31,497 nucleotides of DNA from a virus: positions 1 through 31,497 of IMG/VR virus record IMGVR_UViG_3300025769_000502, one strand, 5' to 3'. A program made the position numbers and the translations under genes. The number at the start of each line of letters is the position of its first letter. The stretch's first letter is position 1. The notes below the pieces were generated by a model that had not been told where the DNA came from, made no database searches, and saw only the letters and a list, made by a program, of their open reading frames with translations. Shown here piece by piece: positions 13,221 through 31,497 of the stretch.

Positions 13221-13808
13221 ATGGAAACTTTTATATATCAATATTTTTTAGAAGACCTGAGTCTTTGCGATCAACTTATAGACTATCATAAAAAACACGA
13301 AGAATATAAATCCGTAGGATCCTCTAATTTTGGTGTAGATAAAAGTATAAAAGATTCGACAGATGTAGCAATTTTTAATTCTTCTAACAATTCAGCAATA
13401 CAAAAATATTTTAAAGAATTGAGTAAAGGTACTCAATCATATATTGACAAATATAATTTATATGGATTGTATCATACTTTAGATGCAACTATAATACAAC
13501 ATTATGCTCCTGGTGGTGGTTATAAAAAATGGCACTGTGAAAGAGATAACGCAGCATTATCCAGTGGTTCAATAATGTATAATAGAGCTTTAGTTTTTAT
13601 GACATATTTAAATGATGTTACAGATAAAGGAGAAACTGAATGGTTATATCAAAATATAAAAATACAACCTAAAAAGGGATTAACTGTTATCTGGCCTACA
13701 GATTTTACTCACACACACAGAGGTATAGTTTCACCAACACAGGAAAAATATATTATAACAGGATGGTTACATATGTGTCATTATGATTATAGAGGAGATA
13801 GGAGATAG
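13221..13808 (+). CDS. 2OG-Fe(II) dioxygenase, P4H-like, HxE variant
   Basis: A 195-residue single-domain oxygenase. The double-stranded beta-helix core spans residues about 88-185. Strand I has H105-C-E107 in GGGYKKWHCERDN, followed by RALVFMTYLNDV with GETEW, then the P4H-like KKGLTVIWPTDFTHTHRG with the distal His (H164 or H166). K176 in QEKYIITGWL is the likely 2OG-binding base. The proximal metal motif is HxE rather than the usual HxD. The family couples oxidation of 2OG to hydroxylation of a protein or small substrate; here the substrate is unknown. It has its own late promoter, no ribosome site, and is the first of three consecutive oxygenase-like genes. Confidence 0.8.
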   Translation: METFIYQYFLEDLSLCDQLIDYHKKHEEYKSVGSSNFGVDKSIKDSTDVAIFNSSNNSAIQKYFKELSKGTQSYIDKYNLYGLYHTLDATIIQHYAPGGGYKKWHCERDNAALSSGSIMYNRALVFMTYLNDVTDKGETEWLYQNIKIQPKKGLTVIWPTDFTHTHRGIVSPTQEKYIITGWLHMCHYDYRGDRR

Positions 13809-13820: not shown

Positions 13821-14459
13821 ATGAATTTAAAAAATTATTATTACTATTATGAAGCAGCATTACCTCAAAAATTTTGTGATGATGTTATAAACACAGGAAA
13901 ACAGCAACAAGCTCAAATGGCTGTAACAGGTAGCAGTGAAGGAAGAAAAGATTTGACTGCTAAAGAAATAAACAATATACAAGAAAAAAGAAAATCAGAA
14001 GTTGTTTGGTTAAACGATCAGTGGATTTATAATACAATACACCCTTTCATACACGATGCTAATGAAAAAGCTGGTTGGAATTTTCAATGGGATTTTTCAG
14101 AAAGTTGTCAATTTACAAAATATGGTTTAGGACAATACTATGGCTGGCATTGTGATAGTTGGGAAGAACCCTATAATGCTCCTGATAATCCAAATACAAA
14201 TGGTAAAATAAGAAAATTATCCGTAACAATTTCGTTAAATGATCCGTCCGAATATGAAGGTGGTAATTTACAATTTGATTTTAGAAATCAAGTTGATTGG
14301 GAAAGACACAAAAACGCTTCAATAAATACCTGTACACAAATAAGACCTAGAGGGTCGATAATAATTTTTCCTAGTTTTGTATGGCATAGAGTATCTCCTG
14401 TTGTAAAAGGAACAAGATATTCTTTAGTGTTATGGAATTTAGGACAACCTTGGAGATAG
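13821..14459 (+). CDS. 2OG-Fe(II) dioxygenase, PKHX/P4H-like, canonical HxD
   Basis: A 212-residue oxygenase with a complete active site: H110-C-D112 in YGWHCDSW, H189 in FPSFVWHRVSP, and R199 in KGTRYSLVLWNLG for 2OG. The segment LSVTISLNDPSEYEGGNLQF (residues about 133-152) is the typical strand pair of the PKHD-hydroxylase/PiuC-like group, and RPRGSIIIFPSF precedes the distal His. The N-terminal 85 residues are helical and polar (QQQAQMAV, NNIQEKRKSEVVW). It is expected to be soluble and to hydroxylate an unknown substrate, with a peptide side chain most likely by family analogy. A GGAGATAG at its end provides the ribosome site of the next oxygenase. Confidence 0.88.
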   Translation: MNLKNYYYYYEAALPQKFCDDVINTGKQQQAQMAVTGSSEGRKDLTAKEINNIQEKRKSEVVWLNDQWIYNTIHPFIHDANEKAGWNFQWDFSESCQFTKYGLGQYYGWHCDSWEEPYNAPDNPNTNGKIRKLSVTISLNDPSEYEGGNLQFDFRNQVDWERHKNASINTCTQIRPRGSIIIFPSFVWHRVSPVVKGTRYSLVLWNLGQPWR

Positions 14460-15603: not shown

Positions 15604-15844
15604 TATAAGTTATATTAAATACTACGAAGAAAACGAAGTTTACTTACAAGATTTATCAAAAAAATTTAATATGATAAATGCTATAGAAGTAGAACAAAGA
15701 CATATTTCAAAAACACCTAGAATGGGTGCTCTAGGAATCCCCTATATAGAAAAGAGGTATACAGTTTTAAAAGGAAATCAAAGAATTACTTTAGCGAAAA
15801 AGTTAGGGTATACACATATAGAAGGAATTATTGTAAATGATTAA
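15545..15844 (+). CDS. Small ParB-like domain protein overlapping gene 16
   Basis: A 99-residue protein. Residues about 18-97 follow the ParB N-domain plan: ISDISYIKYYEENEVYLQDL, a stretch around IEVEQRHISKTPRMGALGI, then YTVLKGNQRITLAKKLGYTH and IEGIIVND. GNQRITLAKKLG corresponds to the ParB/sulfiredoxin-fold nucleotide-binding box (GxxR..A...LG). ParB-like domains bind or hydrolyse CTP or ATP, or act as nucleases; which applies is unknown. The ATG at 15545 is the only plausible start that keeps the first strand, so 59 bp overlap gene 16. The stop overlaps the start of the next oxygenase by 8 bp. There is no ParA partner and no centromere-like repeat here, so plasmid-type partition is unlikely. 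A role in DNA packaging or modification is speculative. Confidence 0.7.
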   Translation: MKILKAKTSHPKKKILKISDISYIKYYEENEVYLQDLSKKFNMINAIEVEQRHISKTPRMGALGIPYIEKRYTVLKGNQRITLAKKLGYTHIEGIIVND

Positions 15845-16451
15845 AAATCAAATATTAGTATATGATGATATTGTACCAGAAAAGTTACAAGACGAAATAG
15901 AACAAGTTTTACTAGGACCAGATTTCCCTTGGTATATGTCGTGTCATAAAGATGAAAAAGGTAATTTTCAAACAAGTGATTATTCGCAAGGTAAAAAATT
16001 TGAACACAATAAAAATGTACAAGATATAGGACAGCTAGTACATACGTTTATGAGAATTAATGAAAATAATTTAACTGTAAGATCACCTTATTTTAATTTT
16101 ATTTTAAGTGTGTTGGAACTGACTGTAAGTAAACATAATTTAAAAAATGTTTTGGTTAAAAGAATCAAGTCAAATATGAAACCAAGTTCTTCATTATTAA
16201 ATGAAGATAGTTTTGGAATACCTCATAAGGACTATGATGATGAACATTTTGTTTTGTTGTATTACGTAAATGATAGTGACGGCGATACTGTAATATTTGA
16301 TAATGAAAAAGATTTAAATATAATAAAAAGTGTAACTCCAAAGAAAGGAAGAATTTTACTATTTGATGGAAAGTTTTATCACGCAGCTGGTAATCCTATT
16401 TCAAGTAATTATAGAGCAGTAGTAAATTACGATTTTACAGCAGATGAGTAA
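15837..16451 (+). CDS. 2OG-Fe(II) dioxygenase between gp16 and gp17
   Basis: A 204-residue oxygenase with a full active-site set: H130-K-D132 in FGIPHKDYDDEHFVLLYYV, H182 in LLFDGKFYHAAGNP, and R193 in NYRAVVNYDF. The segment NDSDGDTVIFDNE and VTPKKGRILLFDG are standard DSBH strands. The N-terminus (NQILVYDDIVPEKLQDEIEQ) resembles the 'I.V.DDF.....' start of many marine phage oxygenases, including the one at 29850. It overlaps both neighbours (8 bp with the ParB-like gene and 8 bp with gene 17), so it is locked into translation of the terminase operon. The substrate is unknown. Confidence 0.88.
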   Translation: MIKNQILVYDDIVPEKLQDEIEQVLLGPDFPWYMSCHKDEKGNFQTSDYSQGKKFEHNKNVQDIGQLVHTFMRINENNLTVRSPYFNFILSVLELTVSKHNLKNVLVKRIKSNMKPSSSLLNEDSFGIPHKDYDDEHFVLLYYVNDSDGDTVIFDNEKDLNIIKSVTPKKGRILLFDGKFYHAAGNPISSNYRAVVNYDFTADE

Positions 16452-26848: not shown

Positions 26849-26880
26849 AAAAGGCGAGGCCTCAAAACCTCGCCTTTTTT
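26849..26880 (+). terminator. Intrinsic terminator after gene 23
   Basis: Perfect stem AAAAGGCGAGG / CCTCGCCTTTT (11 bp, including a GGCGAGG core) with an 8-nt loop, ending in a run of six T. It is the only strong GC-rich hairpin with a T-tract I found in the window, and it separates the head-gene block from the genes starting at 26900. Confidence 0.92.
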
Positions 26881-26886
26881 GTATCT

Positions 26887-26894
26887 ACTAAATA
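26887..26894 (+). promoter_or_regulatory. Possible weak late promoter ACTAAATA, 5 nt before ATG
   Basis: Keeps the TAAATA core but differs from TATAAATA at two positions. It lies exactly 5 nt before the ATG at 26900, as at 13821 and 27149. It is the first possible start signal after the terminator. Confidence 0.35.
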
Positions 26895-26899
26895 ACAAT

Positions 26900-27133
26900 A
26901 TGAAAAAAATTTTAATTCAATATCTCTACATATTCATCATAACACTTATTATGTTATGTGTTTTTATATCGGTAAACGCATGCGAAGTAGAAGAAGTACA
27001 AGATACTACATTACCAATATGCGAAGAATATGAAGTATCAACAGAAGAAAAACCTTGTAGAAAAGGTGAAGATATATTAACCGTTATTGAGGCTATTGAA
27101 AAACTAGGCGAGTCAGGAACACTTCCTAGATAA
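26900..27133 (+). CDS. Small exported Cys-containing protein (possible lipoprotein)
   Basis: I place the start at the ATG at 26900 (77 residues), because the upstream TTG lies in the terminator. The N-terminus MKKILIQYLYIFIITLIMLC is a signal sequence: two Lys, then about 20 hydrophobic residues. A VNAC sequence (residues 25-28) resembles a lipobox, and cleavage after VNA by signal peptidase I is an alternative. The mature part is short and acidic with three Cys (C28 and two in TLPICEEYEVSTEEKPCRKG) and a C-terminal helix ILTVIEAIEKLGESGTL. No family is recognised. It could be a membrane or periplasmic phage protein, such as a superinfection-exclusion or lysis-related factor. Those roles are speculative. 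Confidence 0.65.
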   Translation: MKKILIQYLYIFIITLIMLCVFISVNACEVEEVQDTTLPICEEYEVSTEEKPCRKGEDILTVIEAIEKLGESGTLPR

Positions 27134-27135
27134 CA

Positions 27136-27143
27136 TATAAATA
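27136..27143 (+). promoter_or_regulatory. Late promoter TATAAATA, exactly 5 nt before gene 3 ATG
   Basis: Exact octamer followed by GTATT and then ATG at 27149. With T4 spacing the +1 base is the A of the ATG, so the transcript would be leaderless. No Shine-Dalgarno sequence is present. Confidence 0.7.
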
Positions 27144-27148
27144 GTATT

Positions 27149-27775
27149 ATGACAACAACATCTTTTGCTCAAAGACAACCTAGTAAGTTAGACTATGCTT
27201 CTCCTACACAGTTTAAGTTTAATATAGTCAAATTACCTAAGGTAGAATATTTTTGTACAGCTGTCAATCTTCCTGGTGTATCAATAGGAACTACTGAACA
27301 ATCTACACCATTAAGAAACGTTCCATTGCCTGGTGAAAAATTAACGTTTGAAGATTTGACAATGACATTTATGGTAGATGAAAATTTAATTAACTACCAA
27401 GAAATACACGGTTGGTTAATCGGACTAGGTTTTCCTCAAAGTCACACACAATACAAAAATTTAACGGATGCTGGCGCTGACAGAGCACCAACATCAGCAT
27501 CTAGTGTAAGTACAGAACCTGGTAAAGTAAAATATGGACCAGGAAGTCAAATAGGTGGTTTTTCAGATGCAACGTTAATTGTTTTGTCTGCGAAAAATCG
27601 ACCTGTAACAGAAGTAAGATTTACCGATTTGTTTCCAACTAGTTTATCATCTTTGAACTATAATCAACAAGAGGAAGATGTAAACTATTTGACTGCAAAC
27701 GTAACATTTAAATATAGTATATATGAGTTTGGTACAAATATAAACTCATCTACAACATCAGTTACAACCTCTTAA
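27149..27775 (+). CDS. 3: Tail completion protein gp3-like (tail-tube fold)
   Basis: A 208-residue protein of the T4 gp19/gp3 tail-tube-fold family (T4 gp3 is 176 residues and terminates the tube). Visible family features are YASPTQFKFNIVKLPKVEYF, a strand CTAVNLPGVSIGTTEQSTPL, RNVPLPGEKLTFEDLTMTFM with VDENLINYQEIHGWLIGLGF, and the late strands VRFTDLFPTSLSSLNYNQQE and ANVTFKYSIYEF. The LPGVSIG, FEDL...F.VDE and F.DLFP.SL elements match gp19-like proteins. Its location between the major capsid gene and uvsY is that of gene 3 in marine T4-like phages. A second tube-like or baseplate tube protein is an alternative. Confidence 0.82.
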   Translation: MTTTSFAQRQPSKLDYASPTQFKFNIVKLPKVEYFCTAVNLPGVSIGTTEQSTPLRNVPLPGEKLTFEDLTMTFMVDENLINYQEIHGWLIGLGFPQSHTQYKNLTDAGADRAPTSASSVSTEPGKVKYGPGSQIGGFSDATLIVLSAKNRPVTEVRFTDLFPTSLSSLNYNQQEEDVNYLTANVTFKYSIYEFGTNINSSTTSVTTS

Positions 27776-27778
27776 AGT

Positions 27779-27807
27779 TTGACTTTTAGAGTGTTTTGTG
27801 ATATAAT
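27779..27807 (+). promoter_or_regulatory. Sigma70-type promoter of the carbamoyltransferase gene
   Basis: -35 TTGACT (27779-27784, 5 of 6 match), 17-bp spacer, perfect -10 TATAAT (27802-27807), placed 3 bp after the gene 3 stop. The -10 box is 5 nt before the ATG at 27813, so +1 would fall on or next to the start codon. This is the only clear host-type promoter in the window and implies early or host-polymerase expression, distinct from the late structural genes. Confidence 0.8.
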
Positions 27808-27812
27808 TAGTT

Positions 27813-29411
27813 ATGAATATTATTGGGTTAAGTCGTCATCATAATGGAACCACTACTGTAATAAGAGATGGTGTGGTATTACTATCAATCGAAGAAGAAA
27901 GGTTAAATCGTTTCAAACACGAGGCCTCTCCTTTTTTAGGTATATTAGAAACTTCAAAATATATAAAAGATGTAGATTATGTTTCTATTTCAGGTTTACA
28001 TTCTTTAGAAAAACGTTTTGACTTTTCAAATACTAATAGTCCTTTTGTACTATGTGTAGCAAGAACGTTTATAAAAAATAAAACTTTTAATGTTTATGAT
28101 TTACACAAAAAACATCATTTAACCCACGCAGCAGGTTCTTTTTATAATTCTGGTTTTGATAGAGCATTGTCTTTTGTGTTTGATGGCGATGGTTCAAAAA
28201 ATGAAAATAATGAAACTGAAGGTTATAGTTGTTATGATTTTTCTTATGATGGATTTACATTGGTAGAAAAACAATATCAAAAAAGAACAAGTAACGTTGT
28301 TAATACTTTTGATAAAGAAACATTTAGTTTGGGAAGATGTTTCGAAGAAGTATCAAAACATTTGGGTTTTAATAATTTCTTTGACTCTGGTAAAGTTATG
28401 GGATTAGCCTCATACGGAAAAGATATAAATTTAAACTTTTTAGATTTTTTAAATAATAATTATGACCAAACTATAAACAAAAATCATTTTTTATATGAAG
28501 ATACCAAAAACTTAAAAGACTTTCAAAAATCAGCTGATCTAGCATTTAGTCTTCAAAAATACACACAAGATAAATTGTGTAATATAGTTACAAGAATTAT
28601 ACAACAAACAGATTGTAAAAATATATGTTTATCAGGTGGATTTATAATGAATTGTGTAAGTAATTTTAATTTAAGAAAAAAATTACCTAAAGATATTAAT
28701 ATATACGTGGAACCAATAGCACACGATGGCGGAACATCAATAGGTGGGGCAAAATTAGTTTATTACGAGTTAACGAAAAGTAAAGAAAAGTTTCCTCAAA
28801 CAACTACCTATTATGGTTTAAAATATGATTTAAATGATATAAAAGAAAAAATAAAACATCTAAAAACAAAAGAAGTAACAAAAGAAGATGTTGCTAAAAT
28901 ATTACAAAAAGACATTGTGGCTATATGGCAGGGTCGATCTGAACAAGGGCCTAGAGCATTAGGTAATAGAAGTATTTTGTTTAATCCTAAACTAAAAAAT
29001 GGTAAAGATATAGTAAATGTTGTAAAGAAGCGAGAATGGTTTAGACCTTTTGCTGGAACAATACTATTTGAACATACACACGATTATTTTGATATGGCTG
29101 GTTTAGAAGAAAGTCCCTTTATGACATATGCCGTAGATGTTAAGAAAGATAAAGTTAACGAGATACCTGCGATTACACACGTTGATAATACTTGTAGAAT
29201 ACAAACACTGAAAAAAGAATATAACAAGCATTTTTATGAACTCATAGAAGAATTTTATAAATTGACAGGTACACCTATATTATTAAATACATCATTTAAC
29301 TTGGCTGGTGATCCTATGGTGGAAACTATTGAAGACGCTATAGAAACATTGAATGGATCAGATTTAAAATACGTATATTTACCTGAACTAAATACTTTAA
29401 TAGAAAAATAA
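27813..29411 (+). CDS. Carbamoyltransferase, NodU/CmcH/TobZ family
   Basis: A 532-residue full-length carbamoyltransferase. The N-terminal Kae1-like domain starts NIIGLSRHHNGTTTVIRDGV, with IEEERLNRFKHEASPF, the metal-ligand region HHLTHAAGSFYNSGFD (H101, H102, H105), FVFDGDGSKNENN, GKVMGLASYGK and CLSGGFIMNCVSNFNLRK, then HDGGTSIGGAKL. The C-terminal YrdC-like domain has WQGRSEQGPRALGNRSIL (from W372), REWFRPFAGTIL and TGTPILLNTSFN. Family members transfer a carbamoyl group from carbamoyl phosphate, via carbamoyl-AMP, to a hydroxyl or amine of a sugar, antibiotic or similar acceptor. In a phage the acceptor could be a modified nucleotide, a glycan or a small molecule; the sequence does not say which. 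It has its own sigma70-like promoter and no ribosome site. Confidence 0.93.
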   Translation: MNIIGLSRHHNGTTTVIRDGVVLLSIEEERLNRFKHEASPFLGILETSKYIKDVDYVSISGLHSLEKRFDFSNTNSPFVLCVARTFIKNKTFNVYDLHKKHHLTHAAGSFYNSGFDRALSFVFDGDGSKNENNETEGYSCYDFSYDGFTLVEKQYQKRTSNVVNTFDKETFSLGRCFEEVSKHLGFNNFFDSGKVMGLASYGKDINLNFLDFLNNNYDQTINKNHFLYEDTKNLKDFQKSADLAFSLQKYTQDKLCNIVTRIIQQTDCKNICLSGGFIMNCVSNFNLRKKLPKDINIYVEPIAHDGGTSIGGAKLVYYELTKSKEKFPQTTTYYGLKYDLNDIKEKIKHLKTKEVTKEDVAKILQKDIVAIWQGRSEQGPRALGNRSILFNPKLKNGKDIVNVVKKREWFRPFAGTILFEHTHDYFDMAGLEESPFMTYAVDVKKDKVNEIPAITHVDNTCRIQTLKKEYNKHFYELIEEFYKLTGTPILLNTSFNLAGDPMVETIEDAIETLNGSDLKYVYLPELNTLIEK

Positions 29412-29421
29412 TGGAGTTGTT

Positions 29422-29850
29422 ATGACACTTGAAGAATTACAAGAATTGATTGAAAAAGATATGAAAATAAACGATACCGAATTAGATTTAGAATCTTTAA
29501 AAACCCCACAATTACATAACAAATATTTAAAACATCTAAACAAGTTTAAGTTACTATTAAGTCGTGCTGAAGGCGATTTAAGCAGGCTTAAGCGAGAAAA
29601 GTGGGAGTATTACACTGGTAAGGCCACACCAGATGTATATGCTCTAAAACCTTTTAATTTAAAGTTACTTAAAACTGATGTTGATAAGTATATTGAAAGC
29701 GATGAAGAATACCAAAAGACAAAACAAAAGGTAGATTACTTAAATACAATAGTTGATTATTTGGATAAAATAGTAAGACAAATTTCTAATAGAGGATTCA
29801 CAATTAAGAATGCTATTGACTGGCGTAAATTTACAAGTGGGGCTATTTAA
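29422..29850 (+). CDS. uvsY: Recombination mediator UvsY
   Basis: A 142-residue homologue of T4 UvsY (137 residues), the hexameric mediator that loads the UvsX recombinase onto gp32-coated single-stranded DNA. Features are the helical LHNKYLKHLNKFKLLLSRAE, GDLSRLKREKWEYYTGKATP with the conserved basic segment and WEYYTGKA motif, and the C-terminal helix pair ending VDYLDKIVRQISNRGFTIKN, AIDWRKFTSGAI. GGAG precedes the ATG. It follows the carbamoyltransferase by 10 bp, so it is probably transcribed from the promoter at 27779. Its stop overlaps the next start by one base. Confidence 0.95.
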   Translation: MTLEELQELIEKDMKINDTELDLESLKTPQLHNKYLKHLNKFKLLLSRAEGDLSRLKREKWEYYTGKATPDVYALKPFNLKLLKTDVDKYIESDEEYQKTKQKVDYLNTIVDYLDKIVRQISNRGFTIKNAIDWRKFTSGAI

Positions 29851-30386
29851 TGAATCATAAGATTGAAGTATTTGATGATTTTATTCCATACGATAGAATG
29901 GAAAGAATTTACGATTTTTGTCATAATTCATCATTTAAATTAGGTTGGGCTGATGGCAATAGTGATGAAAAAAGAAAATTAAAGAATCTACATAGTCCTT
30001 GGAGTTTTGATGATTTAGATAGATCACAATTGTTACAATATATAGGTCCTGTTTTACAAAAATCAAAAAATTTTAATCACTTATCTGTTGACGACATTTA
30101 TTTAACAGCTTGTAATTTATGTACTCCTGCTGATACCTTTTTTGCCCACACTCACGCTGATACAGATACTTTGTTATATTATCCTAATTTACATTGGGAA
30201 GATGGTTGGGAAGGTGAAACGAGATTTTTAGATAAGAACAATAGAGATGAAATTATTTACACAACAATATATAAACCTGGAAGAATTATATTATTTGACG
30301 GAGAGATACCACATATAATAGGAACACAATCAATATCTGGTCCTAAATATAGGTTTACTGTTGGTGTTTTTTTCAAGCGTAAATAA
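29850..30386 (+). CDS. 2OG-Fe(II) dioxygenase between uvsY and uvsW
   Basis: A 178-residue oxygenase. The metal site is H102-A-D104 in FFAHTHADTDTLLYYPN (H100 is a second candidate), with distal H155 in GRIILFDGEIPHIIGTQS and R168 in GPKYRFTVGVFF for 2OG. The segment HWEDGWEGETRFLD (residues 115-128) is a characteristic P4H-like strand pair, where GGE/GET marks the hydroxylase core. The N-terminus KIEVFDDFIPYDRMERIYDF matches the oxygenase at 15837. It overlaps uvsY by one base and touches uvsW, so it is embedded in the recombination operon and is probably expressed earlier than the other oxygenases. The substrate is unknown. Confidence 0.85.
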   Translation: MNHKIEVFDDFIPYDRMERIYDFCHNSSFKLGWADGNSDEKRKLKNLHSPWSFDDLDRSQLLQYIGPVLQKSKNFNHLSVDDIYLTACNLCTPADTFFAHTHADTDTLLYYPNLHWEDGWEGETRFLDKNNRDEIIYTTIYKPGRIILFDGEIPHIIGTQSISGPKYRFTVGVFFKRK

Positions 30387-31497
30387 ATGACAACCACCAG
30401 ATATATCATAGTAGATAAAAAAAACGAAGTCTATCTTAAAATAGAAGCAGACGCTGATATTCGCAGAGAGCTTGGTGAATACTTTACGTTTGAGGTACCA
30501 GGATATAAGTTTATGCCTCAATATCGTAATAGAGTATGGGACGGAAAGATAAGACTTTTTTCATACGCCACAGGTCAAATTTATGCTGGTTTATATCCTT
30601 ATATAGTAGATTGGTGTAACAAAAATGATGTACAAGTTGTAGATGGAACTAAAATAAAAGATACCAAAGTAGATGAAGAATTATTACCTAATTTTTTAAA
30701 AGCATTAAAGTTACCTTTAGAAGTAAGAGATTATCAGTTAGAAGCTTTTAAATATTCTATTAAAAAAGGTAGATGTTTATTAGTATCGCCTACTGCGTCA
30801 GGTAAGTCTTTAATAATATATCTAATGTTGGTATTTAATTTATTAAGATTAAAAGATACTAAACAAGATAAAATATTAATAATTGTACCTACTACTTCTT
30901 TGGTAGAACAGCTATTTAAAGACTTTAAAGATTATGGTTATAATAGTTTAAAAAATGTACACAGAATATACTCTGGCCACGATAAAGAAACAAGTAAAAG
31001 GGTTATAATATCTACTTGGCAATCTATTTACAATATGCCAAAAAAATGGTTTAAACAATTTGGTATGATTATAGGTGATGAAGCTCATTTATTCAAAGCA
31101 GTTTCGTTAACTAAAATTATGACTAAACTAGAAGATTGTAAGTATAGAGTTGGTCTAACAGGAACTTTAGATGGTACAAAAACACATAAACTTGTATTAG
31201 AGGGTTTGTTTGGAACTGTAAATAAGGTTGTATCTACAAGTGAATTACAAGAAAAGAAACAATTAGCAGATTTAAAAATTATGTGTTTAGTATTACAACA
31301 CGATAAAACAGCTCGTCATTTTTTAAAAGAAAAAAGTTACCAAGAAGAAATGGAATACCTTGTTTCTAATGAAAAAAGAAATAAATATATAAGGAATCTT
31401 TGTCTTTCTTTACAAGGCAATTCTTTATGCTTATTTCAATACGTTGAAAAACACGGTGAGATTCTTAAAGAGTTAATCGAAGATAAAGCACAGAATA
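30387..31497 (+). CDS. uvsW: UvsW helicase, N-terminal part (cut by window edge)
   Basis: Begins at ATG 30387, directly after the preceding stop (30384-30386), and stays open to the window end (370 codons). T4 UvsW is about 500 residues, so the C-terminal RecA domain is cut. The N-terminal region (YFTFEVPGYKFMPQYRNRVW, DGKIRLFSYATGQIYAGLYP) is the UvsW DNA-binding wing. Next come the Q-like motif EVRDYQLEAF, Walker A SPTASGKSL, VPTTSLVEQLFKDF, and the DEAH box IGDEAHLFKA, followed by GLTGTLDGT (motif III). It is an SF2 helicase that unwinds R-loops and branched recombination intermediates and converts replication modes. It lies in the classic uvsY-uvsW order, with an oxygenase inserted between. 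Confidence 0.93.
   Translation, partial: MTTTRYIIVDKKNEVYLKIEADADIRRELGEYFTFEVPGYKFMPQYRNRVWDGKIRLFSYATGQIYAGLYPYIVDWCNKNDVQVVDGTKIKDTKVDEELLPNFLKALKLPLEVRDYQLEAFKYSIKKGRCLLVSPTASGKSLIIYLMLVFNLLRLKDTKQDKILIIVPTTSLVEQLFKDFKDYGYNSLKNVHRIYSGHDKETSKRVIISTWQSIYNMPKKWFKQFGMIIGDEAHLFKAVSLTKIMTKLEDCKYRVGLTGTLDGTKTHKLVLEGLFGTVNKVVSTSELQEKKQLADLKIMCLVLQHDKTARHFLKEKSYQEEMEYLVSNEKRNKYIRNLCLSLQGNSLCLFQYVEKHGEILKELIEDKAQN

Follow-up and report, generated by a model that had tools for sequence, protein, structure and literature searches.

A carbamoyltransferase gene carried as apparent accessory cargo behind the uvsY promoter of a T4-like phage, with a probable acceptor outside DNA

The window analyzed here is the whole of IMG/VR record IMGVR_UViG_3300025769_000502 (31,497 bases), a fragment of a T4-like (Kyanoviridae) phage. 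Its host is probably SAR11-like, since the nearest isolate is Pelagibacter phage Mosig (75% for UvsY, 79% for gp23, and 72% for UvsW). A 41-kb twin contig reaches 9.7 kb further upstream, with tail and baseplate ORFs, and differs from the window at 8 of 30,322 compared positions, none of them within the carbamoyltransferase (CT) gene; the 31 to 41 kb thus covered belong to a genome probably near 140 kb. The region around the CT gene holds the following features.

27136-27143, plus strand: late promoter motif of the T4 type, TATAAATA, preceding gene 3; closest late promoter before the CT gene
27149-27775, plus strand: gene 3, tail completion (tube-like) protein (phrog_45, 4e-41)
27779-27784, plus strand: -35 element TTGACT, sigma70 type, at a position conserved in relatives with the same uvsY slot
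27799-27807, plus strand: extended -10 element TGaTATAAT after a 17-nt spacer, stopping 5 nt short of the CT start codon
27813-29411, plus strand: CT gene, an O-carbamoyltransferase ORF of 532 amino acids, NodU/TobZ family, phrog_1601
29413-29416, plus strand: GGAG, ribosome-binding site of uvsY, directly behind the CT stop codon, as compared with relatives whose site is empty
29422-29850, plus strand: uvsY, recombination mediator, downstream in the transcription unit of the CT gene (PF11056, 1e-35)
29850-30386, plus strand: phrog_274-type gene resembling 2OG-Fe(II) oxygenases, between uvsY and uvsW (PF13640, weak at 0.004; phrog_274, 3e-18)
30387-31497, plus strand: uvsW helicase gene, truncated by the contig end, 72% to Mosig UvsW

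The position between gene 3 and uvsY that a preliminary description had given for the CT gene is correct, with a gp3 homolog on one side and UvsY on the other. The gene 3 product has 42% identity to the annotated tail completion protein (gp3) of HTVC008M and 33% to gp3 of ACG-2014d; PHROGs labels it "tail tube" despite this homology. Another label, "DNA endonuclease V" for phrog_274, covers what looks like a family of 2OG-Fe(II) oxygenases, as PF13640 matches there too (1.6e-7 for L056) and Pfam gave no endonuclease match for any of the three members checked (window 29850-30386, L056:7694-8335, and L009:5418-5900). Three more genes of the 2OG-Fe(II) oxygenase type (13221-13808, 13821-14459, and, weakly, 15837-16451) are found from the gp15 homolog to the terminase and sheath genes. 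A tail-fiber-like protein with IPT/TIG and Gly_rich_2 domains is encoded at 1125-2723, and the same Gly-rich domain occurs in the CT-adjoining fibers of loci L063 and L071. Between gp23 and gene 3 there is a small ORF, secreted or lipoprotein-like, in the window (26879-27133) and in two related contigs (L248:55-291 and L249:1501-1737); the window copy had no family match in Pfam or PHROGs.

Both Pfam domains of the NodU/TobZ family, Carbam_trans_N (7e-26, 92 bits) and Carbam_trans_C (1e-57, 195 bits), scored above the cutoff in CT, and the pair (PF02543/PF16861) spans the full length of the protein. Its entire length also matched phrog_1601, "Nol-like carbamoyltransferase" (1e-150). All motifs are intact (HHxxH, DGDG, GGxxxN, GRxExGPRALGNRS, KxREWFRPFA, HVDxTCRIQT, and NTSFN), and those of the catalytic and metal sites (HHxxH, DGxG, GRxExGPRALGxRS, KxRExFRPFA, and NTSFN) are invariant or nearly so in family alignments that include VtdB, NovN, and GdmN. 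The AlphaFold model (pLDDT 85, pTM 0.86) has TobZ as its best fold in the PDB (E 3e-38, TMq 0.82), followed by VtdB, NovN, and GdmN. A single-protein query of viral contigs returned an identical CT only from two twin contigs of the same virus. Values of dN/dS were 0.18 between the CTs of two other loci with the gene in this position (L185 and L195) and about 0.25 between the window CT and those of L249 and L248, with dS near saturation in the latter comparisons. The gene is under purifying selection. The full-length NodU-type enzyme of the preliminary description thus stands: judged by fold and motifs, CT is an intact O-carbamoyltransferase of a known family, with predicted activity.

Cyanophage carbamoyltransferases have been described as aspartate carbamoyltransferase or as the first step of pyrimidine synthesis (PMC9146016, PMC10436341). 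If that annotation applied here, CT would feed pyrimidine synthesis, which we regard as next to impossible, as the Pfam domains and TobZ fold of CT place it in the Kae1/TobZ O-carbamoyltransferase family, and it had no Pfam match to the aspartate/ornithine carbamoyltransferase family. An identity as aspartate carbamoyltransferase is refuted at the family level by the same Pfam families and fold. Members of this group are O-carbamoyltransferases of the Nol/TobZ type.

The sigma70-type site noted in the preliminary description, TTGACT-17-TATAAT, is present at 27779-27807, where it matches the consensus at 11 of 12 positions and is TG extended. It is the sole intergenic site of at least 10/12 in the window with the right placement relative to a following ORF. 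By count, 11/12 sites are not rare on the plus strand of the whole AT-rich window (2 observed versus 0.8 expected); it is the conservation of this site in relatives which shows that it is not there by chance. No Shine-Dalgarno sequence precedes the CT start codon, and because only 5 nt separate that codon from the -10 box, a transcript from the predicted promoter would be leaderless or nearly so. Similar promoter-like sites occur 6 to 10 nt before start codons in Mosig, including those of the late sigma factor and primase genes. The sequence TATAATTA fits the late motif TATAAATA as well, at 7 of 8 positions. The late motif itself has 12 copies in the window, each on the plus strand and no more than 120 nt upstream of a gene; the host-type site does differ from these late promoters, as had been claimed. 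The last copy before the CT gene, at 27136, lies upstream of gene 3. With no terminator-like site seen on the plus strand between it and the CT gene, late read-through into CT is expected.

We surveyed the gap between gene 3 and uvsY, here called the slot, in 80 IMG/VR loci around uvsY together with Mosig, HTVC008M, Melnitz, and the window; it was measurable in 82. The slot is empty, with a length of 40 to 66 nt, in 76 of these, and Melnitz has a geneless gap of 118 nt. Cargo is present in the other 5: the window, L185, and L195 each have a CT there, L190 has two ORFs resembling 2OG oxygenases by sequence, and HTVC008M has one phrog_274 gene. Two contigs beyond this survey, L248 and L249, also have a CT in the slot, 59 to 60% identical to the window CT. 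Among 59 distinct gaps, 32 contain a promoter reaching 10/12, versus 1.6 in shuffled sequences, with a spacer of exactly 17 nt in 54/56 and a TG-extended -10 element in 53/58; these counts are inflated by kinship among the loci, but in nearly all of them gene 3 is only 55 to 67% identical to that of the window.

Since the same promoter stands in the empty gaps of relatives without CT, the site at 27779-27807 belongs to uvsY and is older than the CT gene. It is therefore not the gene's "own" promoter, as the preliminary description had called it; L249 keeps it 6 nt before the CT start codon, while no such promoter is visible before the slot CT of L248. The empty-site relatives show that CT entered between the ancestral promoter of uvsY and its ribosome-binding site, the GGAG left behind the CT stop codon. 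From this arrangement we infer early or middle cotranscription of CT with uvsY. With a conserved promoter, a mostly empty site, and differing single-gene cargo in a few phages, the slot constitutes a clean natural experiment in which expression timing and cargo function can be separated for testing.

The preliminary description had taken the linkage to recombination genes as an argument for action during replication. The nearest relatives of CT, however, are found in clusters of tail-fiber and 2OG oxygenase genes as often as in the uvsY slot. The CT of L022, a close relative in the tree (63% in the codon-based alignment, 59% by BLAST), adjoins a tail-like gene, a sulfotransferase gene, and 2OG oxygenase genes; that of L251 lies behind three ORFs resembling 2OG oxygenases, and those of L253 and L254 lie among 2OG genes. 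Other relatives are located behind gp47-gp46-like ORFs (L252), between gp45 and gp44 (L023), or beside a gp41-type helicase gene (L031). In the tree, L022 with its tail-fiber context is sister to L249 with its slot CT (support 100/97), and slot occupancy requires at least four changes of state. A single ancestral insertion into the slot is disfavored by these sisters and state changes; repeated insertion is likely. Since CT moves between genomic sites and the slot is usually empty, its location at uvsY gives little reason to assign it a part in replication.

The 2OG gene beyond uvsY (29850-30386) was considered as a functional partner of CT and rejected, because the same place between uvsY and uvsW is filled by a 2OG-like ORF in 53 of 77 loci, with or without CT. 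Carbamoyltransferase genes occur elsewhere in these phages. A different CT clade is found at the neighboring gp23-gp3 junction in ACG-2014d (L011:3479-4978) and S-SSM4 (L012:3197-4738), and HTVC008M has another CT by gp59 and 2OG genes. Mosig, which has no slot CT, carries another annotated carbamoyltransferase (L165:10990-21305, Mosig genome 60990-71305) in a cassette with MoaA-like, nitroreductase, aminotransferase, and methyltransferase genes that adjoins tail genes.

We investigated the contexts of CT genes across 102 dereplicated loci, which fall into two halves in the tree. In the first (66 loci), sister to that of the window CT, a phrog_8954 gene accompanies the CT, in nearly every case as its immediate upstream neighbor. 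The phrog_8954 model has a GT9 heptosyltransferase fold, nearest to TibC, a Veillonella GT9 protein, and WaaF, and the loci contain heptose genes, namely PfkB (heptose kinase), HAD, isomerase, and epimerase genes, as well as tail fibers. The phrog_8954 gene (L048:5052-5990 and 60 further loci) can thus be noted as a conserved phage gene of GT9 fold directly upstream of CTs and beside heptose synthesis genes. It is absent next to the window CT, which lies outside this clade. Heptose-clade CTs were also found on archaeal and bacterial MAG contigs (L102, L103, and L105 to L112), which are probably misbinned phage contigs, because L102 groups tightly with the viral L051 and most of them carry the phrog_8954 gene.

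The contexts in the half that includes the window CT (36 loci) are Gly-rich tail fibers, 2OG oxygenases, and sulfotransferases. A 2OG-like gene lies within three genes of CT in 24/36 loci here versus 13/66 in the heptose clade (Fisher, 4e-6), and several of these 2OG genes, as in L063 and L071, are contiguous with CT and adjoin Gly_rich_2 tail-fiber genes. Together with the Gly_rich_2 fiber encoded in the window itself (1125-2723), this could mean that 2OG-Fe(II) oxygenases hydroxylate side chains of the tail fiber and that CT carbamoylates those hydroxyls, thereby altering the adhesin. We consider this doubtful, although the best of the alternatives: the association of CT with 2OG genes is not phylogenetically independent (a test on independent pairs found only 3, p = 1, and had no power), and these phages commonly carry 2OG genes, as the uvsY-uvsW gap illustrates irrespective of CT. 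To our knowledge, no O-carbamoylated protein side chain is made by the NodU/TobZ family.

Since 2021, phage carbamoyltransferases have often been taken to be DNA modifying. A phage-type CT that makes 5-carbamoyloxymethylcytosine was indeed proven in the MetaGPA study (PMC8670742), and by this precedent CT might carbamoylate a hydroxylated base, such as 5-hydroxymethylcytosine (5hmC), in phage DNA or its dNTP during replication. The early/middle type of the promoter and the relatives in replication operons (L023, L031, and L252) fit such a role, and those relatives leave room for action on a nucleic acid or nucleotide. In the tree, however, the proven enzyme and the CTs of Xp15, Effie, and BF503P2 form a far outgroup on a very long branch (SH-aLRT 100), and the proven enzyme shares 24% identity with the window CT. 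At the positions corresponding to TobZ 421 and 423, singled out by the MetaGPA study (PMC8670742), the 5hmC clade has Cys in 3/4 and Thr in 4/4, respectively, whereas Gly and Arg occupy these positions in the window CT and in all of its kin. Ile at TobZ position 408 is shared by the window CT and the 5hmC clade but also by most of the window CT's own kin.

The search for base-modifying partners that the preliminary description had proposed gave no gene of the thymidylate synthase (TS)/dCMP-hydroxymethylase type (PF00303) in the window fragment, the 41-kb twin, or eight complete marine T4-like genomes; the same search found TS-type genes in all three positive controls, Xp15, Effie, and BF503P2. 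A search for TET/JBP (PF12851) had no match, but its controls were silent too, which makes it uninformative. Phylogeny, discriminating residues, and the lack of TS-type genes in the complete genomes of eight relatives all speak against the proposed action on a modified nucleotide, and DNA modification by the window CT is unlikely.

Another possibility is that CT carbamoylates a host metabolite, a signal nucleotide, or a toxin, acting on a small molecule or in counterdefense. The closest solved structures are the antibiotic-tailoring enzymes NovN, VtdB, TobZ, and GdmN, and expression from the uvsY promoter would be early or middle. The window, on the other hand, shows no biosynthetic or defense neighbors, and the lineage is widespread beside tail-fiber and LPS-type genes, a pattern not expected from a metabolite role; we regard this as improbable, if slightly less so than DNA modification.

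The reading that we prefer, with a probability of roughly 0.55, is that a SAR11-type T4-like phage carries CT, a functional O-carbamoyltransferase, as accessory cargo behind the uvsY promoter, and that the acceptor of CT is a surface-glycan or tail-fiber-linked hydroxyl and not DNA. Going by family, motifs, and fold, CT would make carbamoyl-adenylate from carbamoyl phosphate and ATP, like TobZ, and would then pass the carbamoyl group to a hydroxyl. Its gene, inserted between promoter and ribosome-binding site of uvsY as described above, would share the early/middle transcription of uvsY-uvsW from the host-type promoter and would be expressed a second time, late, through read-through from the gene 3 promoter. 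Judging from phylogeny and from the gene contexts of its relatives, CT most likely acts on a surface-glycan hydroxyl, either of host LPS/O-chain or of a phage-made glycan, or alternatively on a hydroxyl on or linked to the tail-fiber apparatus. Such a hydroxyl is favored over DNA because the 5hmC clade is remote, the discriminating residues differ, TS-type genes are absent, the sister clade is paired with heptose transfer, and relatives occur in tail-fiber contexts. Surface glycan had been among the substrates listed in the preliminary description and remains the best candidate, on the evidence of relatives at 40 to 60% identity; within the window, no acceptor-making gene adjoins CT. WapO carbamoylates heptose in Pseudomonas LPS (PMC8005017) and is, by analogy, the nearest cellular precedent.

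More speculatively, marine T4-like phages may build carbamoylated adhesins, with the CT family capping a phage-made heptose or a 2OG-set hydroxyl on the tail-fiber apparatus and single CT genes shuttling between tail-fiber clusters and the uvsY operon, which would allow expression timing to be switched; we hold this to be rather unlikely as a whole. The analysis separates the marine CT clade from the DNA-modifying and pyrimidine readings and links the sister of that clade with heptose transfer next to tail fibers, which offers an assayable substrate.

Among known systems, the MetaGPA 5hmC carbamoyltransferase (PMC8670742) and its relatives in Xp15, Effie, and BF503P2 belong to the same superfamily as the window CT and are also phage borne, but their clade is remote, with Thr at TobZ 423 where the window CT has Arg, and these phages have a TS/dCMP-hydroxymethylase partner that none of the eight marine T4-like genomes has. 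TobZ, NovN, GdmN, and VtdB share the fold (TMq 0.79 to 0.84), the motifs, and the expected carbamoyl-adenylate chemistry; their identity to the window CT is 22 to 26%, their substrates are antibiotics, and the window contains no antibiotic genes. WapO, the Pseudomonas carbamoyltransferase of LPS core heptose O-7 (PMC8005017), catalyzes a reaction of the kind that is proposed for the sister clade, but it is a bacterial LPS enzyme, likened to the phage CTs by reaction and not by sequence. That sister clade (P-SSM2, S-CAM1, S-SSM7, and many IMG/VR contigs) is about 40 to 44% identical to the window CT and forms a fixed pair with a glycosyltransferase of TibC/WaaF fold and heptose genes, which the window lacks. 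Closest of all, the cyanophage phrog_1601 CTs of P-RSM4, S-TIM4, S-MS29, and S-CAM8 are 41 to 46% identical over the full length, have all motifs, and fall in the same clade; whereas they adjoin tail fibers and 2OG oxygenases, the window CT is on its own within the uvsY operon, downstream of the uvsY promoter.
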